Assembly (NCBI GenBank): GCA_003565775.1
Contig: PXAT01000100.1
Location: forward strand, 1 to 37,581
Origin: Ectothiorhodospiraceae bacterium
Lineage (GTDB): Bacteria; Pseudomonadota; Gammaproteobacteria; Nitrococcales; Aquisalimonadaceae
Length of the DNA stretch: 37,581 bases
Reading direction: 5' to 3'
Position numbers and translations under genes: made by a program. Below the pieces are notes generated by a model. It worked only from the letters and a program-made list of their open reading frames with translations. It did not search any database and had not been told where the DNA came from. Positions 2,908-36,800 of the stretch are shown piece by piece. The first letter of the stretch is position 1; every line of letters begins with the position of its first letter.

Positions 2908-2911
2908 CCGA

Positions 2912-3607: not shown

Positions 3608-3622
3608 GACAAGGGTCTCCGA

Positions 3623-9514: not shown

Positions 9515-11830
9515 TCAGTCCTCGGCATCGTCAAAGTCGCCCTTGAACTCCGGGTTCTCCTCGACCGACTGCTGACTGGCCGACGCAGCCCGGTCGCGAT
9601 CACTCTTCTGCTTGTCGCGCTCCGGCTCTTCCAGCTTGCGATGCAGCAGGGGCGGCGCACTGCCGTCCTTGTCCTGACCGAAGTAGATCGTGGTATGCGG
9701 GAACGGAATCTCGATGTCCGCCGCATCGAAGTGGCGTTTCACCAGGCGGTTGTACTGGCGCCCGATGGCCCACTGCGACCCCGGCAACGTCTTGATACGC
9801 ACGCGCACGTTGACCGAACTGTCGGCCAGCGCGGTGACACCATGAACTTCCAGCTCACCGATGATCACGCCCTGGGCCTCTTCGCTCTCCAGCAGCTCGT
9901 CGAAAGCCGCGCGCAGGTGCTGGATCACGTTGTCGGTGTCCTCGCGATAGGCGACGCCGTATTCGCCGACGTGATAGCCGAACTCGCGCATGTAGTTGGA
10001 TACGGTATCCACCGCCGAGAACGGCACGATGTGCAGGGTGCCGGACAGATCGCGGATACCGACCGAACGGACCGAGAGCTTCTCGGCGGTGCCGGTAATG
10101 CCGGCGGCCGTGACCACGTCGCCGGCATTGATGGCGTTTTCCAGCTGGATGAACACGCCGGTGATGATGTCCTGCACAAGTTTCTGGGCACCGAAACCGA
10201 TCGCCAGACCCAGCACACCGGCGCCGGCAATCAGCGGGCCGATATTGATGCCCAGTTCCGCCAGCGAAATCATGATGGTCATCGTGAGAATCACGATGGC
10301 GATGGCATTGCGGAAAATCGTCAGCAGGGTCTTTTCCCGCGAGGTCGGTTCCCCGCCGCCGGTTTCGGGGTTCAGGCGATGCTCGATCCAGCTTGCGATC
10401 CCGATCCAGAGCAAGGTCGCCACCGTGACGATCAGCGCCACGGTCACCAGTCGTGCAATGGTCGTGAGACCGGCATCCGACGCGATCCAGGCCCCCAGGC
10501 TGAACAGCGACCAGGCATCCATGACCACCAGGATCACGGCAATCAGGACCACGGCCTGCACCACCTTCACCGCCTTCGGGATGTAGCTGTTGAGGCGCTG
10601 CTCGAGCATCGGGAACTTGAGATGGGTCTCGGCCGGGATCACCAGCGGTCGGCTGACCAGATTGGTCAGCAGCAGCTCCAGCACGAAACCGACCGCCACG
10701 GCGACCAGCGTCTGCACCGTCGCCTTGGCCATGAACGGCAGCGCGGTCTCGGGATTCAGTACCGTGACCACGAACAGCGCCAGGAAATAGGCGATGGCCA
10801 GCAGGTGCCAGCTCTTAGCCAGCATGCCGGTCAGCACGCGCGTGACCGAGAACTCCGCCTCCGCGGCCATGCCCTCCAGCCGGCCGCGGACATCGTCGCG
10901 GTTCTGGGTGATCACGAGCACCGCATAGAGGAACGCCAGCAGCATGATCACCAGACCGACCGCCTGTCCGACCACCGGCGAGATCTGGAAGTTGATGATC
11001 GGCACCACAACCATCAGACCGTAGCCGATGAAGCCGGCCAGCCGCGCCAGCCAGGCGTTCCAGTAGGCCGCGCTCTCGTGTCCCATCGGCAGCAGGCGCA
11101 GCGCATCGTTGCGCGACGCGAAGATCATGCGGATACCGGCCTTGAACACCTCGATCAGCAGGAAGGCGTTCAGGAACAGGGTCTGCTGCGAATCCATCGC
11201 CCCGGTCTCGCCGAAGACGAACAGGGCCACCACATAACCGGCCACCCAGGCCAGCACCACCACGAGAATGTCCAGCACCGCCGAGTAGACGATCGCCACG
11301 CTGCGACGGAACAGGGCGGCACTGCCCTCGGCGCCGGCCGCCCAGATGCCCGAGCGATCGAACAGCGGCTTTGCCAGACGGCGCAGGACAAGAAACACGC
11401 CGACGGTGATCAGAATCACGCCGCCGAGATTGAGAGCGGCCCAGGCAAGCGTGACCATGCTTGCCGCATCCAGCGCCACTTCGCTGGAACGCACTGTCTC
11501 GACGGCCTCGGTGAACTGGGTGACGACCTGCTCGGCAAATGTCTGAGTCACCATCGCGACCCGTCGTGGCAAGGACACCGCGTCCTCGTCCTGTCCGCTC
11601 GGTGACGCTTCGTCCTCGAGCGCCTCGGGAGGCTGCGCCAGCACTCGCAGCTCGGTGATCAGTCGCTCCCTCTGGGTGTCATCCTCGAGGATGTCCGCCA
11701 GTGCTGCGTAGCCGCGCCCGTCGCCCTCGGCAGCCGCCTCCTCGGCCATCGCCGAGGGCAGCGTCAGTGCAGCCAGACCGAGCAGCAGAAAGAGGGACAG
11801 AATGATTCGGCTGAAGCGTGTGGCAACCAC
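9515..11830 (-). CDS. ybiO: YbiO/MscM-type mechanosensitive channel of the MscS family
   Basis: The protein should be an inner-membrane channel that opens under turgor stress on osmotic downshift. From a GTG at 11830 it is 771 residues, close to E. coli YbiO (741). It has a signal peptide (LSLFLLLGLAALTLPSAMA), then YAALADILEDDTQRERLITELR, which closely matches the YbiO periplasmic start, about ten membrane helices, and a C-terminal MscS core with LIAGAGVLGLAIGFGAQKLVQDIITGVFI as the pore helix and QLENAINAGDVV at the start of the beta domain. The tail is highly charged. The GTG is chosen because AAAGGAGAAC lies eight bases before it and gives the signal peptide; the frame is open upstream to 12118 but unconserved. 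Confidence 0.9.
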   Translation of the reverse strand: MVATRFSRIILSLFLLLGLAALTLPSAMAEEAAAEGDGRGYAALADILEDDTQRERLITELRVLAQPPEALEDEASPSGQDEDAVSLPRRVAMVTQTFAEQVVTQFTEAVETVRSSEVALDAASMVTLAWAALNLGGVILITVGVFLVLRRLAKPLFDRSGIWAAGAEGSAALFRRSVAIVYSAVLDILVVVLAWVAGYVVALFVFGETGAMDSQQTLFLNAFLLIEVFKAGIRMIFASRNDALRLLPMGHESAAYWNAWLARLAGFIGYGLMVVVPIINFQISPVVGQAVGLVIMLLAFLYAVLVITQNRDDVRGRLEGMAAEAEFSVTRVLTGMLAKSWHLLAIAYFLALFVVTVLNPETALPFMAKATVQTLVAVAVGFVLELLLTNLVSRPLVIPAETHLKFPMLEQRLNSYIPKAVKVVQAVVLIAVILVVMDAWSLFSLGAWIASDAGLTTIARLVTVALIVTVATLLWIGIASWIEHRLNPETGGGEPTSREKTLLTIFRNAIAIVILTMTIMISLAELGINIGPLIAGAGVLGLAIGFGAQKLVQDIITGVFIQLENAINAGDVVTAAGITGTAEKLSVRSVGIRDLSGTLHIVPFSAVDTVSNYMREFGYHVGEYGVAYREDTDNVIQHLRAAFDELLESEEAQGVIIGELEVHGVTALADSSVNVRVRIKTLPGSQWAIGRQYNRLVKRHFDAADIEIPFPHTTIYFGQDKDGSAPPLLHRKLEEPERDKQKSDRDRAASASQQSVEENPEFKGDFDDAED

Positions 11831-12023
11831 GAAGCGTTCTCCTTTCCGTATCGAGGTGCTGACCGGCGCACAGGTCAACCGGGCCCACCGTGGGCCGCTG
11901 ACGCGAGTGTTTGCGGGACTCACGCCGCGCGAAAAGGTCGAAAGCCTAACAAATCCGGCCGGCGTTTTCCGCCCGGCGGCCTGCGAAAGCCGAAGGCAGG
12001 CACGGGAACAGATTGGTGTTCCC

Positions 12024-12998
12024 CTACTGCAACGCCTCCAGTGCGCCTCGGTAATGGGACTGCTCCGGCTGTGCCAACGCCGCTGCCTGCTCGGCATGGG
12101 GACGCGCCGCATCGGCACGTCCCTGCTGAATCAGCGACCAGGCCAGATTGTGATGCACGGCCGGCGATTCCGGGTGCCGCACCAGCGCTTCCCGGTACTG
12201 CGCCTCGGCATCCGCATAGGCGCCCAGCTGATAGCGACTGTTACCCAGACCGAGCCGGGCCACCAGACTCTCAGGCCACAGGTCGACGGCCTGCCGATAA
12301 GCCGTTTCGGCCTCCGTCCAACGTTCCACCTGTTCCAATGCAGCGATTGCGCGCAGGGCGTTCTCCTGCTGCGGGTTCTCCGGCAACTCTCCCGGGGGGT
12401 GAAGCGTGATGGCCCAGTAATCACCAAGCTGCCAGGTCCGCTCGAAGCGACGCAGGCTCATGCTTTCGCGCTCGGTCGTGCCTGAGCGCAGCAGCATGTG
12501 CCCGGCATCCAGATCGAAGCCGACCACGACGGCGTAATGCCACACCGGGATTCTCGGCAGGGCGAGATTCTGCAAAATCAGCACCGGATGACCGGCGCGC
12601 ACCTGTGCGAGCAGATCCGGCAACTCGGGATCATGCACATAGGCGACGAAGCCCTGGCGACGAGCGGCGGTCAGAAGTTCCAATTGCAGACTGCCCCGCC
12701 GGCCGGGCAGGTAGACCTGCGGGGTCAGGTCGTCCGGTGCGATCTCCAGCCCGCGATGGTTCATCACCGTCGCCATCGCCGCCGGGCCGCACTGATAGGC
12801 TTCCTGCGGAAAGAAGGGGACGTCCTCGAGTTCAACGGCCCGCGGGCTGCCGAAATCGTCCGTATCCAGCGCATCGATCTGCAGCGGTGTCCGGGCGCAG
12901 CCGACCAGCAGAACAATCAGCAGACCGATCACGACCCGACCGGACCGGAAGCCTCCTCCGGCGCAACCAGTGGCGAGTGGTACCGACGCGGTCTGCAT
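12024..12998 (-). CDS. PA2778-type C39-like cysteine peptidase lipoprotein with TPR repeats
   Basis: The 324-residue protein is a predicted periplasm-facing lipoprotein (lipobox LVGC, Cys34). Residues about 55-205 form a C39-like papain-fold domain: Gln65 and Cys70 (FFPQEAYQCGPAAMATVMN) and His154 (VWHYAVVVGFD). The Asp of the usual C39 Asp-Pro motif after the His strand is not seen; the strand ends LLRSG, so the third catalytic residue must come from elsewhere (perhaps Asp162). Residues about 210-310 hold TPR-like helices. It follows the 13005-13472 lipoprotein gene by six bases. The pairing with a PA2779-like gene is known from Pseudomonas, where NCBI names the family after PA2778; its function is not established. 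Confidence 0.85.
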   Translation of the reverse strand: MQTASVPLATGCAGGGFRSGRVVIGLLIVLLVGCARTPLQIDALDTDDFGSPRAVELEDVPFFPQEAYQCGPAAMATVMNHRGLEIAPDDLTPQVYLPGRRGSLQLELLTAARRQGFVAYVHDPELPDLLAQVRAGHPVLILQNLALPRIPVWHYAVVVGFDLDAGHMLLRSGTTERESMSLRRFERTWQLGDYWAITLHPPGELPENPQQENALRAIAALEQVERWTEAETAYRQAVDLWPESLVARLGLGNSRYQLGAYADAEAQYREALVRHPESPAVHHNLAWSLIQQGRADAARPHAEQAAALAQPEQSHYRGALEALQ

Positions 12999-13949: not shown

Positions 13950-14155
13950 TGGGGAACCGCCCACAGAGTCCGACCGCCTGCCGGTGACGCGTATCCTCAT
14001 GGTACCCAGCCATGAGACGATCCGCCGCCATGGAGGACGCCGATACTGTACTCACAAATCCGGGGGCAGTGCATAACTGTCGCCGCTGCCCGACCACCGG
14101 GCCCACAGTGATGGATTCGCGCGCCCGGCAGCGCATGACGAGAGGGGGTTGTTTC

Positions 14156-15883
14156 GTGTTCCGCCGACTGATTCTTTGTTGCCTGCTGGCCACTGCGCTG
14201 GCGGCCTGCCGAGCCGCCGACATCGACCACGACGTCCCGGCACCGAGCCAATCCCCCGAGGCGCGCCAGGCGGACAACTACATGGTTGTCTCGGCGAATC
14301 CGCACGCCAGCAGAATCGGACGGGAGATTCTGCGCGAGGGCGGTCATGCGGTGGATGCGGCGATCGCGATGCAGATCGCTCTGACCTTCGTCGAACCCCC
14401 GGAAAGCGGTATCGGCGGCGGTGCCTTCATGCTCTATCGGCCGGCGGACGGCGGCCAGGTGACGATGTTCGATGGCCGGGAAACAGCTCCGGGCACGGCA
14501 ACGCCCGAACGGTTCATGCTGCTCGGGAGGCGCCTGCCGCTCTGGTCGGCGATTCCCTCGGGACGCGCCGTCGGCGTTCCCGGCACCGTCGCCCTGCTGC
14601 ACAAGGCGCACGAGGCCCATGGACGCCTGCCCTGGGCAGACCTGTTTGCACCGACCATTGCGCTGGCCGACAACGGCATCGACATGCCGGCCCGGCTGCA
14701 ATACCAGGTGGAACGCGACCTGTCGCTGCGGTTTTTCGGCGACACGCGGCGCTATTTCCGCGAGCAGCTGAAGCAGGATCCGCCAAGGCTGCATAATCCC
14801 GAGCTTGCCGAAACGCTACGGCAGCTCGCCGAGCATGGACCCGAAGCCTTCTATCACGGGGAACTGGCGCAGCAGATGGTCGACAAGGTCCGCTCACGCT
14901 GGCCCGGGCGCGGGGATCTCAGTCTCGACGATCTGGGCGGCTATGAAGCCGTGACTCGAGACGCGGTCTGCGGTGAGTACCGCCAGTGGCGACTGTGCGG
15001 CCCGCCACCACCCTCCTCCGGCGGCATCGCGGTCCTGCAGATCCTTGGCATGCTGGAGCATTTCGATCTGCCGTCGATGTCGCCGGATTCGCTGGATGCC
15101 GCGCACCTGATCACCGAAGCCAGTCGACTCGCCTTCGCCGATCGCTTCCGCTATGTCGGTGATCCGGATTTCGTCGACGTGCCGACCGAGGCGCTGGTGG
15201 AACGGGAGTATCTGGCACAGCGCGCTGCACTGATCGACCCGGCCCGGGCGAAGGACCAGCCCCTGCCGGGTGAACCCGGCGTCCGCGATGAAATCCCGGA
15301 TGCACCGCTACCGGTGGATGAAGAGACCGCCGATGACACCTCGCATTTCGCCGTGGTCGACGGTGACGGCAACGTGGTCTCGATGACCAGTTCCATCGAG
15401 GCGCCGTTCGGCAGCCGGATGATGGTGGGCGGCTTCCTGTTGAACAATCAGCTTACCGATTTCACCTTTCAGGCGGTGCAGAACGGTTTCGAGGTGCCCA
15501 ATGCCGTGGCCGCCGGCAAACGCCCGCGCAGCTCGATGTCACCGTTCGTGGTGATGGACGAGGACGACAATGTGCGCCTGATCATCGGTTCCCGCGGCGG
15601 TAGCCGGATCATCGGCTACGTGGTCAAGGCCCTGATCGGCGTTCTCGACTGGGATCTGCCGGTGCAGGACGCGATTTCGCTGCCGAACCTGGTGCATCGG
15701 GGCGAAGGGCTGGAACTGGAACGCGGCACGGCCCTCGAAGATCTCGCCGGACCGCTCCGCGCCATGGGTCACAGCGTGACCATCACGCCGATGCGCAGCG
15801 GTATCCACGGCATCGAACGCGTCGATGGCATCTGGCGAGGTGGTGCCGACCCGCGCCTGGACGGCACGGCCGAAGGTGACTGA
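14156..15883 (+). CDS. ggt: Gamma-glutamyltransferase, lipoprotein form
   Basis: GGT cleaves the gamma-glutamyl bond of glutathione and related compounds in the periplasm. From the GTG at 14156 it is 575 residues, the normal size. It has a lipobox (ALAACRA), the large-subunit motif AVDAAIAMQIALTFVEPPESGIGGGAFML, and the autoprocessing/nucleophile Thr395 in DDTSHFAVVDGDGNVVSMTSSIE, which starts the small subunit. RPRSSMSPFVV and IIGSRGGSRIIGYV follow; the latter is usually GSPGG, so Pro is replaced by Arg near the oxyanion region. GTG is chosen because GAGGGGG lies about eight bases upstream; an ATG seven codons earlier overlaps that site. It is monocistronic and convergent with msrA. Confidence 0.92.
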   Translation: MFRRLILCCLLATALAACRAADIDHDVPAPSQSPEARQADNYMVVSANPHASRIGREILREGGHAVDAAIAMQIALTFVEPPESGIGGGAFMLYRPADGGQVTMFDGRETAPGTATPERFMLLGRRLPLWSAIPSGRAVGVPGTVALLHKAHEAHGRLPWADLFAPTIALADNGIDMPARLQYQVERDLSLRFFGDTRRYFREQLKQDPPRLHNPELAETLRQLAEHGPEAFYHGELAQQMVDKVRSRWPGRGDLSLDDLGGYEAVTRDAVCGEYRQWRLCGPPPPSSGGIAVLQILGMLEHFDLPSMSPDSLDAAHLITEASRLAFADRFRYVGDPDFVDVPTEALVEREYLAQRAALIDPARAKDQPLPGEPGVRDEIPDAPLPVDEETADDTSHFAVVDGDGNVVSMTSSIEAPFGSRMMVGGFLLNNQLTDFTFQAVQNGFEVPNAVAAGKRPRSSMSPFVVMDEDDNVRLIIGSRGGSRIIGYVVKALIGVLDWDLPVQDAISLPNLVHRGEGLELERGTALEDLAGPLRAMGHSVTITPMRSGIHGIERVDGIWRGGADPRLDGTAEGD

Positions 15884-16033: not shown

Positions 16034-16648
16034 TCAGCCGCCGGCTTCGGCGCCCCAGAGTTCTTCCAGGCGGGAGTCGCGGCCACAACGACTGCGATAA
16101 AAGCGGTAGCGCAGCGGATTTTCCTGATAGTAATTCTGGTGATAGTCCTCGGCATCGTAGAAGGTGTCAGCCGGCAGTATTTCCGTCACAACCTCGTCGC
16201 CGAGTTGTTCCGCAACGGCGTCGCGACTCTCCTCGGCAAGCACCCGTTCCTCGTCATTGCGGTAGAAGATCGCGGCCCGGTAGGAGTCGCCGCGGTCGCA
16301 GAACTGGCCGCCGGCATCCAGTGGATCAATGTTGCGCCAGAGGACGTAAAGCAGTTCCTCGTAACTGACTCGATCCGGGTCATAGACGATGCGCACCGCC
16401 TCATAGTGGCCGGTGTCTTCACCGGTCACCTGCTCGTAGGTCGGATTCTTGAGATGGCCACCGGTATAACCTGAGGTGGTGGACTGCACCCCGTCGACGG
16501 CATCGAACGGTGGCTCCATGCACCAGAAGCAACCGCCGGCAAACACCGCAACCGCCTCACCGGATTCACCCTCGCCCCCATGGGTCGCGGTCGACAGCGA
16601 CACCAGCAGGCCGATGGCGACCAGCAGTCGAAACATTCGCTTTATCAT
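16034..16648 (-). CDS. msrA: Exported peptide methionine sulfoxide reductase MsrA
   Basis: MsrA reduces methionine-S-sulfoxide in damaged proteins. The 204-residue precursor has a signal peptide (LLVAIGLLVSLSTATHG), so it should act in the periplasm. The catalytic motif is VFAGGCFWCMEPPFD (Cys40), followed by SGYTGGHLKNPTYEQVTGEDTGHYEAVRI and YHQNYYQ, all diagnostic. A Cys in SRCGRD near the C-terminus could be the resolving residue. The gene is 19 bases downstream of a membrane-protein gene on the same strand and convergent with ggt. Confidence 0.95.
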   Translation of the reverse strand: MIKRMFRLLVAIGLLVSLSTATHGGEGESGEAVAVFAGGCFWCMEPPFDAVDGVQSTTSGYTGGHLKNPTYEQVTGEDTGHYEAVRIVYDPDRVSYEELLYVLWRNIDPLDAGGQFCDRGDSYRAAIFYRNDEERVLAEESRDAVAEQLGDEVVTEILPADTFYDAEDYHQNYYQENPLRYRFYRSRCGRDSRLEELWGAEAGG

Positions 16649-18591: not shown

Positions 18592-19815
18592 ATGGAAAAG
18601 AATCCATCCAAGGGCTATGTGGCGCTTCTCGGCTGGAGTCTTAATGCCGTCGAGGCTGCGGAGAAATTCGACCGCCGATACATTGTCGTCGCACCCGAAT
18701 GGGCCGAAGACTACTGCAAAGAGCACAACATTCCGCATGTGCCTTGGGACTTCGAGCGACTGAACGATCGTTCCATGGAGATTGCCCAGACGCTGCAGGA
18801 CATGGGCGTCGACGTCGCTGTCCCGCTTTTCGAGGAGACCGTCGAATGGGCGGGTGCCATCAACTCTGTGCTGATGGACAATCCGCGCCTGCTCGGCCAG
18901 TCCATGCTGATGCGCGACAAGTCGCTGATGAAGCGCCGCGCGCAGCTTGGCGGCATACGGGTCGGCATCTTCGAGGAAGCGCATGACCGCGAGGACGTGA
19001 TCCGCTTCCTCAAGCGCGTGAATCAGACGCTGCTGAAACTGGACGGCGACCCCAATGACCCGATCCACTTCAAGGCCTTCGACAAGGCGGGCTGCCTCGG
19101 CCACCGCGTGATCCGGACGCCGGACGACGTCGACGCCATCCCGGAAGAAGAATTTCCGGCTCTGATGGAATCCCATCTGGACGGCTGGGAGTTTGCGGTC
19201 GAAGCGTGGATCCATAACGGCAAGATCCGCTTCCTGAACATCTCCGAGTACGTCACGCTGGGCTATTCCGTGTTCGTGCCGGCCAGCCCGGAGCTGGAAC
19301 ACTATCGCCCGCAGATCAAGCAGCAGATCGAGAAGCTCATCAGGACCTTCGACATCGAATTCGGCTTCATCCACCCGGAGTACTTCGTCACGAGCGACGA
19401 TGAAATGTACTTCGGCGAGGTCGCGTTCCGGCCGCCGGGGTTCAAGGTCTTCGAACTGCTCGAGAGGGTCTACGGCTTCAATGCCTATCAGGCGATGATC
19501 CTGTGTTTCGATCCGAAGGCAACCGAAGAGGAAGTCGCGGCCTTCTTCCCGAAGGAAATCGAGGACGCCAAGGGCCATGCCGGTTGTTTCGGCGTCTATC
19601 CGCGCCGCCGGGTGGTCAGTCGCCTGGAGATTCCGGAAGAGACCGAAGATCACCCTTACTTCGAGTCACACGAACTGACGCCGCCTCCGGAGGAGACCGT
19701 GACCAAGCGCACGGCCTTTGGCACGCACTGGGGTCTGGTTTACTTTACCGGGGAAGATCCGCATCAGCTGAAGGATCTGCTCAAGAAACAGGAGGATCTG
19801 GACTTTTACGTCTAG
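18592..19815 (+). CDS. ATP-grasp ligase of unknown substrate
   Basis: The 407-residue protein has the ATP-grasp fold, whose members join a carboxylate to an amine or thiol through an acyl-phosphate. The N-terminal part (about 1-110) resembles the pre-ATP-grasp domain (KGYVALLGWSLNAVEAAEKF). The core shows LMESHLDGWEFAVEAW (Glu193, Glu200) and the metal-binding EVAFRPPG with Glu276 and Arg280, as in amino-acid ligases of the carbamoyl-phosphate-synthase-like group. AGGAG lies eight bases before the ATG. Its stop is immediately followed by the ATG of the 681-residue gene, so the two are almost surely co-translated. No substrate-specific motif is recognised; soluble and cytoplasmic. Confidence 0.85.
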   Translation: MEKNPSKGYVALLGWSLNAVEAAEKFDRRYIVVAPEWAEDYCKEHNIPHVPWDFERLNDRSMEIAQTLQDMGVDVAVPLFEETVEWAGAINSVLMDNPRLLGQSMLMRDKSLMKRRAQLGGIRVGIFEEAHDREDVIRFLKRVNQTLLKLDGDPNDPIHFKAFDKAGCLGHRVIRTPDDVDAIPEEEFPALMESHLDGWEFAVEAWIHNGKIRFLNISEYVTLGYSVFVPASPELEHYRPQIKQQIEKLIRTFDIEFGFIHPEYFVTSDDEMYFGEVAFRPPGFKVFELLERVYGFNAYQAMILCFDPKATEEEVAAFFPKEIEDAKGHAGCFGVYPRRRVVSRLEIPEETEDHPYFESHELTPPPEETVTKRTAFGTHWGLVYFTGEDPHQLKDLLKKQEDLDFYV

Positions 19816-21861
19816 ATGGTTGAACCGGTGGCAAACGAGACCGCAAATGACAACCCGGCAGACAGTCGTCTGCCGGGTTTGCTCGAGAAACTGGATGACG
19901 GCATCCGCTCGTTGCGTGATGCAGCGGCGTTCAACAAGCCTGCCAGACTGCCGCGTGTCCTGGACACCGCCAAACGGGTGCTGCTTCAGGACGGGGGGTG
20001 TGCCGCCGTCGAGGAACGCGCCGAGCAACTGGAAGAAGCGGGTGTCTTCCTCGGCTCGGACTGGGCCACGCCCCAGATTCTGGTGCCCTCACTGACCACG
20101 CACTCCTTGAAGAGTCCGGAACCGACCACGGTCGTGATCGAGGCGCTCAGCGAGCTGCGACTGCTGGCGGTGGCCCGCGGGCAGTTTCTGCATCCGTTGA
20201 TCTCCGAGGAACAGGCGCACCACTACCTGACCCAGGTGCTGGCGATCAATCTGGCGTTGCTGTTCACCGGACCGTCGGAAGCGGAACGGGAAACCCAGGG
20301 CCGGCTGGCAAAAGTGCCGCGCTCGCTGCTCCAGCATCTGGCTGACCGGATCGGCTACGAGCACGTCATCGACCGACTGATCGATGAAATCTGGCGCATT
20401 CTGCAGCAACGGCCGATCCAGGTGGATCCGGTCAAGCAGATGATTACCCAGATCGCTATCTGCCAGGCCAATCCGGAAATCGACCTGGGCATCAGCGGCC
20501 AGGGGGCCGACCGCCTGGTCAGTAGCCTGTACGGGCCGACCCAGGCCTGCCGGGAGGATCCCGGCATCGAGGTGTTCGGCGAACGCCTGCGCAGCATGGA
20601 CGCGCAGGCCTTGCAGACGGAGGCCACCGGCTTCGCCCGCGCCATGCATGATACCGGGCTGGTATCGCCCTACCATGCAGTGCTGCTGCGTCACCTGATG
20701 GACCAGGGTGATCACCTGCTGGCCGAAGCGCTGGGCCTGTCCTCCACCGGACGCGACTGCCTGCTGTGTTACCGGGAACTGGTCAAGGCCCTGATACGGG
20801 AAGCTGTTCACCCCACCACTCCGCAGGCGATCTACGGCCTGGGACTGATGCTGGAACGCGGCATCATGTACCAGCCCGCGGTGGCTCCAAGCCTCTGGCG
20901 ACAGATTGCGCTACCGCTCTCGGCCTGGGCGCAGGAACGCCTCTACATGGCGCATGGCAATCTGGCAACGCCACGGGCACTGCTGCTTGAAGGGGTGCTG
21001 TGCATGCTCGGGCAGCCGCTTGGCGTCGGTCAGGGCAACAACCCGACCTGCCAGTCGGCACGCGCCCTGTCCATGTGGGCCTTCAATGACCCCGACTATC
21101 TGTTGCAGATGGTGGCCTGGGCGGCACGCGATGACGAGATCATCATGCACTTCGAAGGCCAGCGAATTTCGTCGCGGGAGAGCCTCATCGGTGTCGCCAG
21201 CGAACTGCCGATGGATCTCGATGCGGTATCCCTCCTGGTGGTACCCCATCTCGACCGGATCTACGCCGAGATGGGTCGCCGTTGCGTCGACCGCCCGGGC
21301 GATCCGCATCGCTGGGTCAACCCGGAATTCCACGGCTGGTGGTCCGGGCGGGGCTTCCGCATCAACGTCGACGTGGAAACCGGCCGGCTGGTGGAGCTGG
21401 AAGATTTTCTGCGCCACTTCTATGCCAGCTATCACCCCTATTACAACGGCAACCAGCCGCTGATCCACCCGCAACCCGCCGGCGTCGCGGTCACCGACAG
21501 CGCGGCACGCTTCATCGGCTGGCATGCGATCACGATTCTGCGGGTGGCAATGGACCCGGATGACACGATCCGTGTCTATTTCTTCAACCCCAACAATGAC
21601 AGCGGCCAGGACTGGGGCGACGGCGTGGTCGTCAGCACGTCCGGCAACGGCGAGCGCTTCGGCGAGGGCTCATTGCCGTTCGAACAGTTCGCCTCACGCC
21701 TCTACATCTTCCATCATGACCCGCTCGAGCGTGGCGAACTGGCCGATGTGGGCGACGACGAACTGAAACGCGTGATCGCCTACATCCGGAACAGCTGGGG
21801 GGCGGAACGCCTGCCTGCGGAACAGCTTCAGGCCGACCCGGGAGCAGCCGCCAGACACTAG
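19816..21861 (+). CDS. Large protein with a C-terminal papain-like domain, partner of the ATP-grasp ligase
   Basis: The 681-residue product has no signal peptide. Residues about 1-390 are helical with no recognised domain. In the C-terminal half three motifs stand in papain-clan order: Cys412 at the start of a helix (GNNPTCQSARALSMW), His570 in a strand (FIGWHAITILRV) and Asn591 in the next strand (VYFFNPNNDSGQDWG). This suggests a cysteine peptidase, amidase or transglutaminase-like fold; catalysis is inferred. The ATG directly follows the stop of the ATP-grasp gene with no gap. I do not know a named family. A ligase next to a thiol hydrolase or transferase recalls glutathionylspermidine synthetase/amidase in logic only, not in sequence. 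Confidence 0.8.
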   Translation: MVEPVANETANDNPADSRLPGLLEKLDDGIRSLRDAAAFNKPARLPRVLDTAKRVLLQDGGCAAVEERAEQLEEAGVFLGSDWATPQILVPSLTTHSLKSPEPTTVVIEALSELRLLAVARGQFLHPLISEEQAHHYLTQVLAINLALLFTGPSEAERETQGRLAKVPRSLLQHLADRIGYEHVIDRLIDEIWRILQQRPIQVDPVKQMITQIAICQANPEIDLGISGQGADRLVSSLYGPTQACREDPGIEVFGERLRSMDAQALQTEATGFARAMHDTGLVSPYHAVLLRHLMDQGDHLLAEALGLSSTGRDCLLCYRELVKALIREAVHPTTPQAIYGLGLMLERGIMYQPAVAPSLWRQIALPLSAWAQERLYMAHGNLATPRALLLEGVLCMLGQPLGVGQGNNPTCQSARALSMWAFNDPDYLLQMVAWAARDDEIIMHFEGQRISSRESLIGVASELPMDLDAVSLLVVPHLDRIYAEMGRRCVDRPGDPHRWVNPEFHGWWSGRGFRINVDVETGRLVELEDFLRHFYASYHPYYNGNQPLIHPQPAGVAVTDSAARFIGWHAITILRVAMDPDDTIRVYFFNPNNDSGQDWGDGVVVSTSGNGERFGEGSLPFEQFASRLYIFHHDPLERGELADVGDDELKRVIAYIRNSWGAERLPAEQLQADPGAAARH

Positions 21862-21965
21862 GGCAAGACACTCGGGAATGCGAACTCGCACACGCCGCGC
21901 GGCCGCCAAACCGTCGTATCGTGTTGACCAGCAATGATTCCCGATCGGCAACCGGCGACAACACC

Positions 21966-23684
21966 ATGCCGCTTGAGCACGGCCACCTGACAGATGAGAC
22001 ACCGCGCCGGGAGCCCGCGCGGCACCTTGAACCCCGGCTCCTGTCGTCTTACCGCTACATTGGCGATATTGCCGAAGACGGTATCGACAGTGTGTTTCTC
22101 GCCTGCAGCGATGCCCTGAGGCAGGCGCTGCAGTGCGATGCGCTGTCCCTCAATGACGACCTCGCCGCATGGCACTCCCTGCGTGAGAGCGAAACCCGGC
22201 AGAGCCTGGTCATTCAGCAATACTGCCCGCTGGATTCGCGACGACGACAGACGCTGCTGCAGTGGCAGATGCAGCTCCCCTGGGGTTGTGCGACGCTGCT
22301 CGAACTGCGAATTCCCGGCGCTGCTGCCATCAGTGATCATCAGCTTGCCCTGATCTCGGCCAATCTGCGCCTGCTGGCCCAGAGCCTGGCGACCGGTCAG
22401 GCTCTGGATCAGGCGCGCAAGTTAGCCGATACCGATTCGCTGACCGGACTCCTGAACCGGCGCGGCTTCCGTCAGGCCTCTCGCGGTCTGCTCGACCGGA
22501 CCCGCCGGGCTTCACTTCTGATCATGGATGTCGACCGCTTCAAACAGATCAATGACGCGCTGGGGCACGCCATGGGCGATACCTACCTGCGCGGTATCGC
22601 CGGGCGGCTGATCGAACTCATGCCACAGGACGCCATACTCGCACGCATGGGGGGTGACGAGTTCGCCATGCTGATACCGTCCGGGGCAGCCGGTGCCGAA
22701 CGTCTGGCCGCGGAGGTGCATAAATCCCTGCAGCGTCCGCTGCGACTGACCGGCGAAGCGGTACGTCCCCGCATGACCATCGGCATCTGTTCGCTGCCCG
22801 AGCACGTGAGCTCGCTGCACGAACTTCTGCGCTGTGCGGATCTGGCCATGTTCGACGCCAAGCGCTCGACCCGCCGGAGCCAGACCTACAGCCAGGAGTG
22901 CCATCGCTGTTCCAGTGCCACGCTGCGAATCGAGTCGCGCCTCGAAGCGGCGTTGGCCGACAATCGCATGCAGCTGGCCGTGCAGCCCATCGTCTGCCTC
23001 AAAACCGGGCGCACGGCGGAGGTCGAGGTCCTGCTGCGCTGGAACGATCCGGAACTCGGCGCCGTCTCGCCGGCGGAGTTCATTCCGCTGGCCGAATCCA
23101 TCGGCCTGATCAATGAACTGGATCACTACGTCGTGCAGAAGGCCTTGCAGGAAACCCGTCATCTGCAGGAAGCCATCGCGATCAACGTCTCGGCGCCGAC
23201 ACTCTACGATCCGGGGTTCGCCGACTTCGTGCTGCAGGGGCTGCAGCAGGCGGGACGACCGCCGGCCACGCTCACCATCGAGATCACCGAGCGGGTGCTC
23301 GCCGATGCGCCGAGGGCCGCCGATGCACTGTTGCGCCTGACGCGCAAAGGCGTGCGCATCGCGGTGGATGATTTCGGCGCCGGCTATTCGTCACTGGGCT
23401 TGCTGGCAAGCCTGCCATTGAGTCGGCTGAAGGTGGACAAGAGCTTCATGATCGGAAGCCACCGCAACCCGCGCTATCTCGAGGTCACGATGGGTGTCCT
23501 GAAACTGAGCGCAGCGCTGGGCCTGGAATCGCTGGTCGAGGGCCTCGAGGATCCTGCCGACATTCCCTGGCTGCAGCAGGCAGGCTGCGATTTTGCGCAG
23601 GGTTTCGGCCTGGCGCGGCCGCGGCCGGTTGACCGGTACCTGCAGGGAATCGCATACGGTTCCCTGTTGTCGGACAAGCCATGA
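21966..23684 (+). CDS. GGDEF-EAL cyclic-di-GMP protein
   Basis: The 572-residue protein makes and/or breaks cyclic di-GMP. Residues about 1-150 look like a GAF-type sensor. A GGDEF domain follows with an intact active motif at 229-233 (MGGDEFAML) and substrate-binding DVDRFKQINDALGH, but no RxxD inhibitory site before it. The EAL domain has EVL (354-356) for EAL with the key Glu kept, then EITERV, AVDDFGAGYSSLGLL, LKVDKSFM and LVEGLED, so its catalytic residues appear present. Both activities are therefore plausible. The ATG at 21966 is uncertain; a GTG at 21921 would add 15 residues. Its end overlaps the next gene (ATGA). It follows the papain-like gene by about 100 bases. Confidence 0.92.
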   Translation: MPLEHGHLTDETPRREPARHLEPRLLSSYRYIGDIAEDGIDSVFLACSDALRQALQCDALSLNDDLAAWHSLRESETRQSLVIQQYCPLDSRRRQTLLQWQMQLPWGCATLLELRIPGAAAISDHQLALISANLRLLAQSLATGQALDQARKLADTDSLTGLLNRRGFRQASRGLLDRTRRASLLIMDVDRFKQINDALGHAMGDTYLRGIAGRLIELMPQDAILARMGGDEFAMLIPSGAAGAERLAAEVHKSLQRPLRLTGEAVRPRMTIGICSLPEHVSSLHELLRCADLAMFDAKRSTRRSQTYSQECHRCSSATLRIESRLEAALADNRMQLAVQPIVCLKTGRTAEVEVLLRWNDPELGAVSPAEFIPLAESIGLINELDHYVVQKALQETRHLQEAIAINVSAPTLYDPGFADFVLQGLQQAGRPPATLTIEITERVLADAPRAADALLRLTRKGVRIAVDDFGAGYSSLGLLASLPLSRLKVDKSFMIGSHRNPRYLEVTMGVLKLSAALGLESLVEGLEDPADIPWLQQAGCDFAQGFGLARPRPVDRYLQGIAYGSLLSDKP

Positions 23685-25492
23685 TCAGTCCACCGCACTT
23701 CGAACAGTCGCAGGACGACGAACGGCATCGTGAAGCGGAGCTGGCAGCGTTGGCTTTGGACTCGACGTGCGCCCCCATGCGGGAACGGGCCCTGCTGGAT
23801 CGAATTGCGGCATTGGCCAGGTGCCGCCTGGGGGCCGATGCCGGCATCGTCAGCATCGTCGGCCACGAGCAGATCTGGACGCTCGGTAGCGCCGGCGTTG
23901 ATATGGCGCCGCAAACGCGGCAGAACAGCCTCGCTGACCGGGTCATCCGGGGGCCGGAGATCACGATTATCGATGACGCCGCAGAAGACCGGACGGCGAC
24001 AGGTGACGGCATCCGGTTCTGTGCCGGCGCGCCGATCACGACCGCGAGTGGCGCCCGCATCGGAGCCGTCTGCGTGTGGCATGGACAACCCCGCTCCCGC
24101 GCAGATGCCGGCGACTGTGCCAGCCTGGGCGATCTCGCCGAAATGGCAATGGACATTCTGGAGCTGCGGCGCCCGGCCAATCCGGCAGATCAACCGTCGC
24201 TGCCGACCGGACCCGATGCCGACGCAAGTCGGGCGATTCTTCAATCGCTCGGTCTCTGCTGCGTTGTGTTCGACCGGCGCCGTCGGATTCGTCTCGCCTC
24301 GCCGGCTTTCGCCGTTCTGATCGGGCGACCGGACCATGCTCTGATCGGCCTGTCGCTGGACAGCCTCGTGCAATCGGGGGTCGACCGCGATCAGTTGCGG
24401 GCACTGGCGAACCATCAGGGCGCAAGCACCGGCATCTGGCACCTGCGAACCCGTGGTCGCCGGTTGCAGGAGATGGAGTGCGAACTGAGTCTGGATACCG
24501 GCCGCGAGCCCTTGTTCGTCGCCCGACTCCGGCATCACCGGGGGCGAACCATGACGCGCCAGCCGGGACCACACACGCTGCGCATCCTCGATCAGTTGGT
24601 GCGGAATGGCGACCCGGAGGCCGTGGTCGTCGATCTGCTGGGCGCCAGCTGTCGCGAACTGAGTGGTCACAATGCCATTGCGTCACTGGTGAGTGGCCCG
24701 GAGCGGCGCGTGGTGATCGGTCTGCCGGGGCAGGATGCCTTCTGCGAGGCGCTGCAACGGCACCACCGCTTCATCGCCGAACACAGCATCTGTGCCACGA
24801 CCTGTACGACCGGACACAGCACGATCAGCCCGGACACCCGTGAAGAAGAGCGCTGGCCCAACTATGCCTGGCTGGACCTCGCTTATGGTATCCGCGCGGT
24901 CTGGTCAGTGCCGATTCCAAGCAACGGTGACAGACCGGCCGGCGCTCTCACCCTCTTCCGGGACGTGTCCGGCGCGCCGACACCCGCGCAGATGGCAATT
25001 CTGCGCGAGGCCGCGGCGATGGCGGCACTGGCCATTCGCGAACTGGATGTGCCGGCACTGGCTCAGCGCACCGACAGCAATACCTGGTCGGTCAATCGAC
25101 TGATGCGGGATTTCCGGCAGCTGCCGGATTATCTCAGCACATGCCACCGGCTCGGCGCACATGCGATACAGATCACGCAGGAGCAACATGAACTCGGCCT
25201 GAGCGGAGACTGGGCCCGACAACAGGGTCGTGATGCCCTCGGTGGGGCCTGCATCCTGGTGACTCTGGACGACAGCCGGATTCTCGTCATTGCCGGAACC
25301 GACAGTCCGGACGACCTGGCCGCGCAGCATCAGGCCCTGTGCCGCCAGTTGCAGATCGACGCGGTCGGCAATGGTCGCAGTCGCAGGGTGCAAAGCAGGA
25401 TCGCCAGCCTGCCTGTCGAGCCGGACACGGACGTGACCGCCCTGCTATCGGCACTCGCGAAATCACTCACTGCACGGGGTACCGACGCATGA
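23681..25492 (+). CDS. GAF-PAS-GAF sensor protein with a decayed GGDEF-like C-terminus
   Basis: The 603-residue soluble protein starts with a GAF domain (about 20-160; LLDRIAALARCRLGADAGIVSIV, FCAGAPITTASGARIGAVCVW), then a PAS-like domain (about 185-275), a second GAF (about 285-440; IRAVWSVPIPSNGDRPAGALTLF) and a C-terminal region (about 455-600). That last part has the strand and helix order of a GGDEF domain, but the motif position reads LDDSR, so it should not make cyclic di-GMP. There is no histidine-kinase or helix-turn-helix domain. The ATG overlaps the stop of the GGDEF-EAL gene and its own stop overlaps the next ATG, so it probably regulates the GGDEF-EAL partner. No cofactor can be named. 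Confidence 0.85.
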   Translation: MISPPHFEQSQDDERHREAELAALALDSTCAPMRERALLDRIAALARCRLGADAGIVSIVGHEQIWTLGSAGVDMAPQTRQNSLADRVIRGPEITIIDDAAEDRTATGDGIRFCAGAPITTASGARIGAVCVWHGQPRSRADAGDCASLGDLAEMAMDILELRRPANPADQPSLPTGPDADASRAILQSLGLCCVVFDRRRRIRLASPAFAVLIGRPDHALIGLSLDSLVQSGVDRDQLRALANHQGASTGIWHLRTRGRRLQEMECELSLDTGREPLFVARLRHHRGRTMTRQPGPHTLRILDQLVRNGDPEAVVVDLLGASCRELSGHNAIASLVSGPERRVVIGLPGQDAFCEALQRHHRFIAEHSICATTCTTGHSTISPDTREEERWPNYAWLDLAYGIRAVWSVPIPSNGDRPAGALTLFRDVSGAPTPAQMAILREAAAMAALAIRELDVPALAQRTDSNTWSVNRLMRDFRQLPDYLSTCHRLGAHAIQITQEQHELGLSGDWARQQGRDALGGACILVTLDDSRILVIAGTDSPDDLAAQHQALCRQLQIDAVGNGRSRRVQSRIASLPVEPDTDVTALLSALAKSLTARGTDA

Positions 25493-31589: not shown

Positions 31590-31955
31590 ATGGCGAAACT
31601 GCTGCTGAATCTCCGTGGTGTACCCGAGGACGAAGCCGATGATGTTCGCGGCTTTCTCCGCGAGCACGACATCGATTTCTACGAAACCGAAGCCAACCGC
31701 TGGGGCCTGACCGCCGGCGGTATCTGGCTGCGGCATGACGAGGACAAGCCGCGCGCCAAGGAATTGATGGCCGATTATCAGGCCCGCCGTTTCCATGAGG
31801 CGCGGGCGGAACACGACCGCCAGAAACGCGAGGGCACGGCACCGAGCACCTGGGATTTACTGCGCCAGGATCCGGCAAAATACCTGCTGTATCTCGCGCT
31901 CGTCGGCGTAATTGTCTATTTCTCGGTCATGCCGTTCATCAATCTGGCGCGATGA
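31590..31955 (+). CDS. DUF6164-like membrane-anchored protein
   Basis: The 121-residue protein starts MAKLLLNLRGVPEDEADDVR, followed by FLREHDIDFYETEANRWGLTAGGIWLRHDED, a small alpha-beta domain resembling the signal-transducing PII-type 'putative signal transducing' folds, then a charged helix (AKELMADYQARRFHEARAEHDRQKREG) and one C-terminal membrane helix (LLYLALVGVIVYFSVMPF). I take it for the DUF6164 family; no function is established. The last bases overlap the next start (ATGA). Confidence 0.8.
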   Translation: MAKLLLNLRGVPEDEADDVRGFLREHDIDFYETEANRWGLTAGGIWLRHDEDKPRAKELMADYQARRFHEARAEHDRQKREGTAPSTWDLLRQDPAKYLLYLALVGVIVYFSVMPFINLAR

Positions 31956-32947
31956 GACGGCGACGCCTTCTGCGGGGCATCGGATCCGCCGGCCTGTTGC
32001 TGGGACTGCCCGGCGCGCTCTGGAGTGGTGCCGGCAATCAGGAGAGCAAGACCGGACTGGTGCTGGATCGCCGGTTTCTCGATCACATGATCCGGCCGGA
32101 TCATCCGGAATCCCCTGATCGGCTGCGCGCCATGCGGGCGCTGTTCGAGGCGCGGGGGCTCCTCGGTGACTGCCGACGCATCACCCCCGCGGACCATCCG
32201 GGCGACAGCCTGTATGCCGTGCACGAGGAGAGGCATATCGAGCGTATCGCCGCCCGCTATCCCGGGACACATCCGGTGGCCCTGCTTGCCAGCGGCGGCG
32301 CCGTTGCCGCGGCCGAAGCCGTCATGGCGGGCGAGGTTCGGCACGCCTTCTGCGCGAGCCGCCCGCCCGGTCACCACGCGCAGAACACCGGCGAGGAAAA
32401 AGGCTTCTGCTACTACAACCATATCGCCATCGTCGCCCGCCATCTGCAGCGACAGCACGGCCTGAAGCGCATCCTGATCGCCGACTGGGATTACCATCAT
32501 GGCGACGCCACCGAGGCCATGTTCTACGACGACCCGAGCGTGCTGTTCTTCTCCACCCATGATGTCAGTGCCTATCCGGGCACCGGCCATGCATCACGCC
32601 GCGGCGAGGGTGACGGCGAAGGGTTCAACATCAATGTGCCGTTGGTATGCGAAGACGGTGACAGCGAGATCATGGCGGCCTTCGAGAACCGGATGCTGAC
32701 AGCGGCCGACGACTTCAAACCGGACTTCGTCCTGATTTCAGCGGGTTTCGACAGCCGCAAGGACGATCCGCTGGGCTGCTTCAAGGTCAGCGACAGCGGC
32801 TTCGCGGAGCTCACCGCGCTGATGCTGGACGTCGCCAGACGCCATTGCGACGGCCGGCTGCTGTCGATTCTGGAGGGGGGGTACAATCTGGACGGCAACG
32901 CCCGGGCCGCGGCAGCGCATCTGGAGACGTTGGTGGAGCACGCTTGA
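31952..32947 (+). CDS. Tat-exported histone-deacetylase-fold zinc amidohydrolase
   Basis: The 331-residue precursor has the arginase/HDAC fold. Active-site parts are present: RPDHPESPDRLRAM, SRPPGHHAQ (general-base His pair), GFCYYNHIAI, IADWDYHHGD (zinc Asp and His), FFSTHDVSAYPGTG, SAGFDSRKDDPLG (zinc Asp) and LEGGYNL. The N-terminus RRRRLLRG followed by a hydrophobic run and a small-residue site (GLPGALWSGAG) looks like a Tat signal, so the enzyme would act folded in the periplasm, which is unusual as most relatives are cytoplasmic. Substrates of the fold include acetylpolyamines. The ATG overlaps the previous stop. Confidence 0.87.
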   Translation: MRRRRLLRGIGSAGLLLGLPGALWSGAGNQESKTGLVLDRRFLDHMIRPDHPESPDRLRAMRALFEARGLLGDCRRITPADHPGDSLYAVHEERHIERIAARYPGTHPVALLASGGAVAAAEAVMAGEVRHAFCASRPPGHHAQNTGEEKGFCYYNHIAIVARHLQRQHGLKRILIADWDYHHGDATEAMFYDDPSVLFFSTHDVSAYPGTGHASRRGEGDGEGFNINVPLVCEDGDSEIMAAFENRMLTAADDFKPDFVLISAGFDSRKDDPLGCFKVSDSGFAELTALMLDVARRHCDGRLLSILEGGYNLDGNARAAAAHLETLVEHA

Positions 32948-33810: not shown

Positions 33811-36800
33811 CTACAGCAAAACCTTTTCGATCCCACCGCTGCGGGCCTGATCCACGAACCGGGTCTGCCAGTCCTTGCCTAGCAGGTGGTTGGCAATCTC
33901 GACCACGATGTAGTCGGCCTCGATCCCGGTATCATCCTCATAGCGACTGAGACCCTGCAGACAGGCCGGGCAGGAGGTGAGCATCTTCACCTTGCCCTTG
34001 TCCGTGGTCGGCTTGCCGGTGATCTCCGTCAGGCCGCTGTTGATCTCTTCTTCCTTGCGGAAACGGACCTGGGTCGCGATATCGGGCCGACTCACGGCAA
34101 AGGTGCCCGCCTCGCCGCAGCAGCGATCATTCAACGGCACGTCCCGACCCATCAGGCCGCTGACCACATCCTGGGGCTTGTGCGTCTTCATCGGCGTGTG
34201 GCAGGGATCGTGGTACATGTACTGCACCCCGTCGATGCCCTCGAGTTGATAGCCCTTCTCCAGCAGATATTCGTGGATATCCAGCAGGCGACAGCCGGGA
34301 AAGATCTGCTCGAACTCGTACTTCAGCAGCTGATCCATGCAGGTGCCGCAGGACACCACCACGGTCTTTATGTCCATGTAATTCAGGGTATTGGCGACGC
34401 GATGGAACAGCACCCGGTTCTCGGTGCTGATAGCCTTGCCCTTGTCGATGTCGCCATTGGAGGTCTGCGGATAACCGCAGCACAGATAACCCGGCGGCAA
34501 CACGGTCTGGGCGCCGGCATGATGCAGCATGGCCAGGGTCGCCAGGCCGACCTGCGAGAACAGGCGTTCGGAACCGCAGCCCGGGAAATAGAACACCGAG
34601 TCCGATTCCTCAGTGACCTTCTGCGGATCGCGGATGATCGGCACGATCTTGTTGTCTTCCAGCCCGAGCAGGGCGCGCGTGGTCTTGCTCGGCAGACCAC
34701 CCGGCATAGGCTTGCGCACGAAGTGCACCACCTGGGCCGGAATCGACTGCTTCTCGGTGGTGCTGGCCGGCCGTGCCGCCGGACTCGCGTCCGGCTTGCC
34801 GTCGGTGTTGGGCACGATACCGACCTTCTTGGCCAGCTTGGCCGCCATGCGCTGGGCACCGAAACCGGCCTGCACCAGCCCCTTGCGCATGATGTTGATG
34901 GTGCGCGGATCCTGCGCGTTGAGGAACGCCATGGACGCCATCGTCGCCGGCTTGCTCTTGCGTTTGCCCTGATCCTTGAGCGCGCCACGCATCTTGATCG
35001 TGACCTCGCCGAAATCAATGTTCACCGGACAGGGCGTGACGCAGCGATGGCAGATCGTGCAGTGATCCGCGACGTCGTTCATTTCGTCCCAGTGGTGCAG
35101 CGAGATACCGCGTCTGGTCTGCTCCTCGTAGAGGAAGGCCTCTACCAGCAGGTTGGTGCCCAGGATCTTGTCCCGCGGCGAATAGCGCAGATTGGCCCGC
35201 GGCACATGGGTGGTGCAGACCGGCTTGCACTTGCCGCAGCGCAGGCAGTCCTTGATGTCGTTGTTGAGCTCGCCGAGCTCCGACTGCTCCAGGATCAGAG
35301 CCTCCTGCTGGACCAGGCGCAGGGACGGCGTGTAGGCGTTCTGCAGCCCCGACCCCGCCAGCAGCTTGCCCCGGTTGAACCAGCCCTGGGGATCGACCTT
35401 TTCCTTGTAGGCACGGAAAGTCTCGACCGTCTCAGGATTCAGATACTGCATCTTGGTCAGGCCGATGCCGTGCTCGCCGGAGATCACGCCATTGAGCTTC
35501 CGCGCCAGATCCATGACCTGATCCACGATGCGATCGGCCTCCTGCATCATGGCGTAGTCGCTGGAGTTCACGGGGATGTTGGTGTGAATATTGCCGTCGC
35601 CGGCATGCATGTGCAGGGCCACGAACAGGCGGCTCGACAGCACCTGTTCGTGAATGGCATCGATGCGCTTGCGCACCGGCTCCAGATCACGCCCGTCGAA
35701 GATCTCCTTCAGCGGCTGCTCCACCTCGTCGCGATAGGAGATGCGCAGGCTGCGGCGCAGCAACAGCTGGATCAGCCGGTCCCCGGGCTGTCGATCGGCG
35801 CGGGCGGTGTCGTTGAGCCAGGCATCATAGGTCTTTGCGTCGCCTTCGAGATTGTCGAGGATGCCCTGCCAGCGGGATTCCACCGCTTCCAGATGGGCCA
35901 CCGCGCGCGACCGCTTGCGGCCGAGGATGGAGCCGCCCTCTTCCGAGGCCTCCAGATCCTCGCGTTCCAGATAATCCGGGCGAGCCCTGAGTTCCGGCAA
36001 TTCACCGCGGAAGTGGGCGCGCAGTTCGCGCACCAGCCGCAGCTTGTTGTGCAGCGACTGATGGATATTGACGCGCTCGATCCCTTCGCTGTACTCGGCC
36101 AGCCGGTCCAGCGGGATCACCACGTCCTCGTTGATCTTGAAGGCGTTGGTGTGGGAGGCGATGGCCGCCGTGCGCGAGCGATCGGCCCAGAAGGTCTTGC
36201 GCGCCTCGGCGCTGACCGCGACGAAGCCGTCGGCATTGCGCTTGCCCGCCAGGCGGATCATGCGCGAGGCGGCGGCGGCGCAGGCGTCCTCGTCCTCGGC
36301 GGCCAGATCCGCCAACAGCACCATCTTGGGCCGCTCGCCACGGGCACCCTTCGGTGCGTAGCCCACGGCGCGCACGTAGCGCTCGTCGAGGTGCTCGAGG
36401 CCGGCCAGCTTCACCGCCTGATCGTTCTTGAGATCGTCGACGATCTCGACGATGGCCGGCACGGCTTCCTGCAGATCCTGGCCGTAGAACTCCAGACAGA
36501 CCGTGCGCTTGTGCTGCGGCATCACGTGCAGCACGAAAGTGGCCGAGGTGATCAGACCGTCGCAGCCCTCCTTCTGGACGCCCGGCAGACCGTTGAGGAA
36601 CTTGTCGGTGACGTCCTTGCCGAGACCGACGGTGCGGAAGCTGGCGCCGGGGAAGCGGATGATCTCGGGCTCGGCCTTCGACGTCTTGCCATCAGCCTCG
36701 AAGCGATGCACCCGAAATACCGCCTCGTCCTGGTCATGGATCTTGCCCAGGTTGTGGTTCAGCCGTTCCACCAGAATCCAGTCGGCATCCGGTGTGACCA

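Follow-up and report, generated by a model that had tools for sequence, protein, structure and literature searches.

Several described systems make use of an ATP-grasp ligase. Glutathionylspermidine synthetase/amidase combines such a ligase with a thiol amidase, ATP-grasp L-amino acid ligases make dipeptides, and comparative genomics by Iyer, Aravind, and co-workers reportedly predicted amidoligase systems built from pairs of ATP-grasp and peptidase-like genes. Here we describe a gene pair resembling the first of these in concept, located in a 37,581-nucleotide (nt) stretch of DNA, which we refer to as the window, from contig PXAT01000100.1 of an Ectothiorhodospiraceae bacterium whose draft genome comprises 3.2 Mb in 215 contigs. 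The first gene, P1 (18592 to 19815, forward strand), codes for a putative ATP-grasp carboxylate-amine ligase of 407 amino acids (aa), and the gene following it, P2 (19816 to 21861, forward strand), codes for a 681-aa candidate thiol enzyme that falls in no known family. A first-pass annotation of the window, made from its letters, had proposed that the two form a ligase-hydrolase system, perhaps for a reversible conjugation such as that of glutathionylspermidine metabolism or for making a peptide-like product. We favor, with a probability of roughly 40%, the reading that an amide-forming pathway not described before has P1 and P2 at its core, with an ectoine-type N-acyl diamino acid as the most likely substrate. 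Both frames are open and lie where the annotation had placed them, with the TAG stop codon of P1 (19813 to 19815) followed directly by the ATG start codon of P2 at 19816; this zero gap is not general among relatives, in which the spacing varies (with starts called by script) and includes an 8-nt overlap in locus L264 and an interval of 54 nt in L267.

The pairing of P1 and P2 is close to obligate. Of 274 genomes belonging to the class, eight contain P2, and the same eight contain P1 at full length and with at least 78% identity; at an E value of ≤0.001 P1 is matched in 20 genomes, the other 12 being partial matches of 22 to 39% identity. Of 398 genomes belonging to the phylum, 11 contain P2 and the same 11 contain P1 (E ≤ 1e-10), one of these genomes being from another class; three further P2 hits with E values of 0.05 to 0.09, spanning 31 to 72 positions, were excluded. 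In a set of 40 relatives, 26 genomes contain P2 and 24 of those contain P1 as well; the two genomes with P2 and no P1 are 81 to 82% complete. The hypergeometric probabilities of overlap by chance are 1e-15, 1e-21, and 5e-9 for the 274, 398, and 40 genomes, respectively, in a calculation that ignores kinship and the genomes shared between samples. Within a sample of 234 genomes from a single order, 32 contain P1; for 29 of the 32 we also observed P2, nine times in the phylum scan for P2 and 20 times beside P1 in the fetched stretches. P1 also occurs in 5 of 19 genomes of another order and in 3 of 61 genomes of the order that includes G329, in another class, where P2 is adjacent each time. Wide occurrence of either gene alone, which had been set beforehand as the observation that would speak against a single system, was not seen in the three samples, and the proposal that P1 and P2 act together is supported.

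A scan of named genomes confirmed at least 580 stretches as relatives of P2, which, judged by its sequences, is a large unnamed protein family. The best 80 loci, chosen by identity and hence no measure of habitat range, are mostly from Halomonadaceae, together with Methylonatrum, Ectothiorhodospiraceae, Alcanivorax, Saccharospirillum, and Marinimicrobium. P2 was found in one of 72,556 plasmid records, a 1.8-Mb Halomonas replicon, and in none of 50,697 phage records.

Adjacency of the two genes survives rearrangement. In addition to the order of the window, with P1 ahead of P2 on the same strand, we observed P2 ahead of P1 (L192, L196, and L266), tail-to-tail arrangements (e.g., L156 and L163), and divergent ones (L239, L246, L248, and L284), and in genomes G006 and G022 the two genes lie at least 70 kb apart. 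Six of the best 80 P2 loci have no intact P1 alongside (L027, L061, L065, L069, L077, and L094), and all six genomes hold another P1, with 76 to 78% identity. Remnants of P1, C-terminal where clear, are evident beside P2 in L061, L069, and L077 and doubtful in L065, and none was found in L027 or L094; at L061, L065, L069, and L077 the P2 frame stays open while the adjoining P1 has decayed. The second P1 copy forms a clade of its own (nine rows, support of 100) that is shared with Halomonadaceae, and it adjoins a second P2 in two of the six genomes (L192 and L196). The genome of the window carries a second P1 as well (G000:C185:247-1461, outside the window), which is 76% identical and lacks a P2 within the 12 kb that were fetched.

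Weak profile matches and strong conservation support the view that P1 is a carboxylate-amine ligase of the ATP-grasp superfamily. Against Pfam it scores 22.8 bits with ATP-grasp_4, under the cut-off of 27, and 17.4 bits with LAL_C2, where an L-amino acid ligase should reach 29.4; a P1 profile compared with the Protein Data Bank (PDB) returns L-amino acid ligases as its top two matches (4wd3, E = 0.0029; 3vot, E = 0.022). We compared 110 distinct near-full-length P1 sequences, 64 to 100% identical to that of the window and many of them from Halomonadaceae, and found 157 invariant columns. These include Glu200 (19189 to 19191), Glu276 (19417 to 19419), and Arg280 (19429 to 19431), the ATP-grasp residues that had been named at the outset and which lie in a stretch at 19189 to 19431 (forward strand); all three are unchanged in 110 of 110 sequences, and Lys161, Glu193, and Glu204 are likewise invariant. 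P1 thus possesses the conserved catalytic Glu and Arg and the ATP-binding residues by which the superfamily is recognized. The AlphaFold2 model of P1 is poor, with a mean predicted local distance difference test (pLDDT) score of 54.0 from an alignment of 28 rows that are 83 to 91% identical to the window.

P2 has no match in Pfam, NCBIfam, or PADLOC. When 29 diverse P2 rows were compared with Pfam at E ≤ 10, the window sequence gave none and the best of the scattered matches to any row had an E value of 0.006, none being credible. Choloylglycine hydrolase, the sole PDB match of the P2 sequence alone, was not accepted (E = 1.2), and the best PDB match of P2 as a profile has an E value of 0.41. 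In papain, the oxyanion Gln stands six residues ahead of the Cys, and the His-Ala and Asn-Pro contexts of P2 recall those of papain. The comparison of P2 covered 111 distinct sequences, many from Halomonadaceae, of which the furthest removed is 42% identical; Gln406, Cys412, His570, and Asn591 never vary (111 of 111). Gln406-Gly-Asn-Asn-Pro-Thr-Cys412 (21031 to 21051, forward strand) contains the candidate oxyanion Gln and candidate nucleophile, and His570 (21523 to 21525, forward strand) and Asn591 (21586 to 21588, forward strand) are the candidate catalytic His and third triad member. The papain order of Cys412, His570, and Asn591 pointed out in the first-pass annotation is therefore upheld by this invariance and by a Gln at papain-like spacing, and the motifs support P2 being a papain-type thiol enzyme.

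The putative papain-like catalytic region spans P2 residues 390 to 660 (20983 to 21795, forward strand) and is the most conserved part of the protein. The mean identity of 28 P2 relatives to the window is 74.5% over residues 390 to 520, 67.9% over residues 521 to 660, and 52 to 59% before these, with conservation highest around Cys412. The AlphaFold2 model of P2 is poor as well (mean pLDDT of 57.5, from 39 rows 73 to 85% identical to the window), and in our opinion both models suffer because the alignments lacked diversity. A helical region of 390 residues had been predicted ahead of the catalytic part, and helices do appear in the model at residues 14 to 389 (19855 to 20982, forward strand), with confidence over a long stretch at approximately residues 14 to 188. 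The catalytic part is modeled with confidence mostly below 60, and because the sole long confident stretch is the first helical part, the papain-like catalytic fold is a proposal based on the motifs. Searches with the P2 model using Foldseek (best E = 0.008) and VIA-align (best Z = 6.3) returned mainly helical-repeat folds, weakly, and the VIA-align rows, which span mainly residues 23 to 400, are uninformative on the catalytic part.

In several relatives the pair keeps company with enzymes that may act on acylated diamines, beginning with ectoine synthase (EctC). Stand-alone EctC genes, with Pfam scores of 171 to 196 bits, adjoin P1 or P2 in L264, L267, L176, and L279, and one lies three genes from P1 in L269. 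In L264 the P1, P2, and EctC genes are codirectional, the spacings being -8 and +1 nt, and the contig breaks off within EctC; in L176 the order is P2, P3, P1, EctC, all in one direction, with a 4-nt overlap between P2 and P3, a histone deacetylase (HDAC)-like gene described below. Aligned by eye to solved ectoine synthases, the L176 EctC retains the iron ligands and most of the substrate residues listed in PMC6344544, and Asn38 is replaced by His, as in the 5bxx enzyme. EctB was not recognized near the pair among the neighbors scanned, which were a part of the whole. Both PMC5924519 and PMC6344544 describe what orphan (solitary) EctC proteins do as unresolved, and the latter suggests that their substrate resembles N-gamma-acetyl-diaminobutyrate.

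P3, an HDAC-like amidohydrolase of class II, adjoins P2 in L176, L178, L248, and L074 (where it is truncated) and P1 in L269; it lies two genes from P1 in L279 and three in L242, and a fragment is present approximately 1 kb after P2 in L005. A P3 profile built from five proteins was run on the 234 genomes of the one order and scored at least 494 bits at 19 sites, distributed over 17 genomes, with none between 494 and 268 bits and other HDACs at 268 or below. All 17 genomes, which are spread over nine families, fall within the 32 that have P1 (hypergeometric probability of 2e-17, ignoring kinship; two of them, G442 and G497, contributed rows to the profile), and P3 is thus an HDAC-type enzyme seen in this sample only in P1 genomes. 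P1-less genomes of the same families, G795 (f278) and G934 (f186) being examples from a list that does not name every genome, have no P3 proper. The best solved match of P3 is HDAC6, with the polyamine deacetylase HDAC10 well behind (E = 6e-46). A GNAT acetyltransferase gene directly precedes P3 in 6 of 22 P3 loci (L269, L279, L294, L296, L299, and L300, the last by tblastn); its best NCBIfam matches are RimI-type protein acetyltransferase models, below their cut-offs, and no ectoine acetyltransferase model is among them. A putative zinc metallopeptidase (PF15887) is a possible further partner: it adjoins the second P1 in L165 and L172 and P3 in L298, and is five genes from the pair in L196, these copies being 79 to 88% identical to that of L298. 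The window has an HDAC-like gene at 31952 to 32947, about 40% identical to P3, and seven Halomonas loci have one ahead of P1 (L052, L056, L071, L073, L082, L092, and L096). With 33 to 40% identity to the P3 of L178, none of these is P3 proper, and they are omitted from the P3 counts, as are similar genes in L021 and L158.

We also compared these partners with the neighborhood of the pair at large. We grouped 169 loci into 68 contexts by merging those with at least three neighbor families in common, adding by hand two EctC genes that the gene caller had missed (L264 and L267, by tblastn); seven named loci were kept as P3 proper, L005 lies outside this analysis, and the truncated P3 of L074 was not counted. 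Of 468 families encoded within three genes of P1 or P2, P3 proper occurs in five contexts, EctC in four, and a broad ABC-ATPase family in four, with no other above three. Several Halomonas loci (e.g., L026:233-1036) have, upstream of P1, genes of an ABC transporter together with one for a binding protein of the polar amino acid type. Peptide methionine sulfoxide reductase MsrA is encoded near the pair in the window and in L174, L237, L240, and L244, and was set aside as a partner because L237, L240, and L244 have one gene order in common. In the window it lies upstream of the pair at 16034 to 16648, preceded by a gamma-glutamyltranspeptidase gene at 14012 to 15883.

How might such a set of proteins work? 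From what is known of the families, we propose that P1 activates a carboxylate with ATP and joins it to an amine, and that the Cys-His-Asn site of P2 cleaves or transfers the resulting amide; every substrate, the sequence of reactions, and the end product are part of this proposal. In part of the lineages this core may work with EctC, P3, and GNAT, and it is this company that makes an ectoine-type N-acyl diamino acid the most likely substrate. GNAT would acetylate an amine of a diamino acid, EctC would close the acetyl-amide into a cyclic amidine, and P3 would strip acyl groups; P1 would form an amide conjugate of the diamino acid, whether cyclized or open, which P2 would recycle or transfer. 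The simplest substrate would be ectoine or something closely related to it, from which an amide or a short peptide would be the simplest product, perhaps stored and released by cells under salt stress.

Several observations weigh against this proposal. First, EctC occurs in only 5 of the 169 loci and P3 in 17 of the 32 P1 genomes; at these frequencies both are optional, and the pair itself may catalyze a different reaction. When the loci are grouped more loosely, into 53 contexts, EctC occurs in two, and P3 and the ABC-ATPase family in four each. EctC, GNAT, and P3 proper are all absent from the window, the rest of this genome not having been searched. Second, P1 was found without P2 in the fetched stretches of G923, G924, and G960 and in the fetched 19 kb of G761, G762, and G763, the remainder of these genomes not having been searched; with no nearby P2 in six genomes, P1 may sometimes act alone. 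Third, the structural models of both proteins are poor, and the link to salt rests on the organism names of the best 80 P2 loci.

A more specific version places the pair in an unknown branch of ectoine metabolism, with P1 coupling the carboxylate of ectoine or N-gamma-acetyl-diaminobutyrate to an amine to give ectoinyl amides or peptides, the orphan EctC forming the ring of the conjugate, P3 and GNAT setting its acetylation, and P2, as founder of a new papain-like family, releasing the solute when it is needed. We regard this version as doubtful in so exact a form. Rather unlikely, in our estimate, is modification of a protein, with P1 adding an amino acid that P2, binding the protein by its helical region, removes through its thiol site, and with GNAT and P3 acetylating and deacetylating the same target. 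The weak likeness of the P2 N terminus to helical-repeat folds would suit this, as would the RimI-type matches of GNAT, the HDAC6 match of P3 as a class II HDAC relative, and the PF15887 peptidase beside the second P1 in two loci and beside P3 in one; however, EctC, a small-molecule cyclase, shares the gene rows, and no candidate target protein recurs beside the pair among the families found in at least three contexts.

The connection with glutathionylspermidine that was first suggested belongs to a third alternative, conjugation of polyamines or thiols, in which P1 joins a polyamine to a carboxylate and P2 is the amidase. A ligase and a thiol enzyme do form one unit here, and GNAT with an HDAC-type enzyme suits acetylation and deacetylation of amines, the match of P3 to HDAC10 included. 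However, Pfam (E ≤ 0.1) finds neither a glutathionylspermidine synthetase domain nor a CHAP amidase domain in P1 or P2, so a role in glutathionylspermidine metabolism is not supported, and EctC would be unexpected in polyamine metabolism; we consider this alternative unlikely. What stands of the original ligase-hydrolase reading is a putative ligase, a protein with thiol-enzyme motifs, and a single system. The survey of genome neighborhoods proposed with it shows that the pair holds together, and the neighbors point to ectoine-type diamino-acid chemistry instead of glutathionylspermidine.

A secreted peptide-like natural product, with P1 as peptide ligase and P2 as a transferase or releasing enzyme, appears a little less likely again. 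The dipeptide synthesis of L-amino acid ligases offers a parallel, the distribution is patchy (in the order of G329, which belongs to another class, only 3 of 61 genomes have P1), and the ABC-ATPase family is near the pair in four contexts, but the Halomonas ABC genes go with a binding protein of amino-acid-importer type rather than with an exporter, no gene for a carrier protein or precursor recurs in the context analysis, and P1 is highly conserved, as its invariant columns attest. An anti-phage defense or toxin-antitoxin role, which two adjacent genes distributed patchily between lineages might bring to mind, is very improbable given that PADLOC has no match for any of five proteins examined, that the genes are separated by at least 70 kb within a genome in G006 and G022, and that phage records yielded no match.

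Other genes of the window may be noted briefly. Downstream of P2, at 21921 to 25492, a GGDEF-EAL protein gene is followed by one for a PAS/GAF protein with a 4-nt overlap; the GGDEF-EAL gene is not the next gene in L021, a locus of the same genus. An 867-codon frame at 9515 to 12118 encodes a large mechanosensitive-channel protein with MscS domains, the urease alpha subunit, a fused gamma-beta subunit, and UreF are encoded at 1198 to 4303, and a 1,248-aa oxidoreductase with flavin adenine dinucleotide and iron-sulfur features and DUF3683 and DUF3400 domains is encoded at 33811 to 37557.

An orphan EctC gene lined up with those of a ligase and a candidate thiol enzyme, which otherwise occur together, provides concrete partners and a short list of substrates for the question of its role. 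The pair is present in Halomonas elongata strain 153B (L092), and an ectC mutant of H. elongata appears in PMC5924519, so deletion genetics should be practical there. Our search of the literature, mostly at the level of records, found neither the P1-P2 pair nor its link to EctC described, and a search of the ATP-grasp gene-neighborhood literature at record level found no such pair named.

A ligase together with a thiol amidase is a known concept; the partners of the P1-P2 pair are new here. L-amino acid ligases (4wd3, and BL00235, 3vot) are the best solved matches and resemble P1 in their ATP-grasp residues and overall length, but P1 scores below the ATP-grasp_4 and LAL_C2 cut-offs and is associated with P2 and, in some lineages, with EctC and P3; we know of no tie to a P2-, EctC-, or P3-like partner among known L-amino acid ligases. 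Relative to glutathionylspermidine synthetase/amidase, P1 and P2 are two genes and not one fused protein. P2 shares with papain-like cysteine enzymes the Gln-x5-Cys, His, and Asn in order, but differs in its large helical N terminus, in lacking a credible Pfam match, and in a catalytic fold that we infer. Compared with EctABC, EctC is near the pair in five loci of relatives and absent from the window, and the GNAT is of the same superfamily as EctA (PMC5924519) but matches RimI-type models, with none for ectoine acetyltransferase among its NCBIfam hits.

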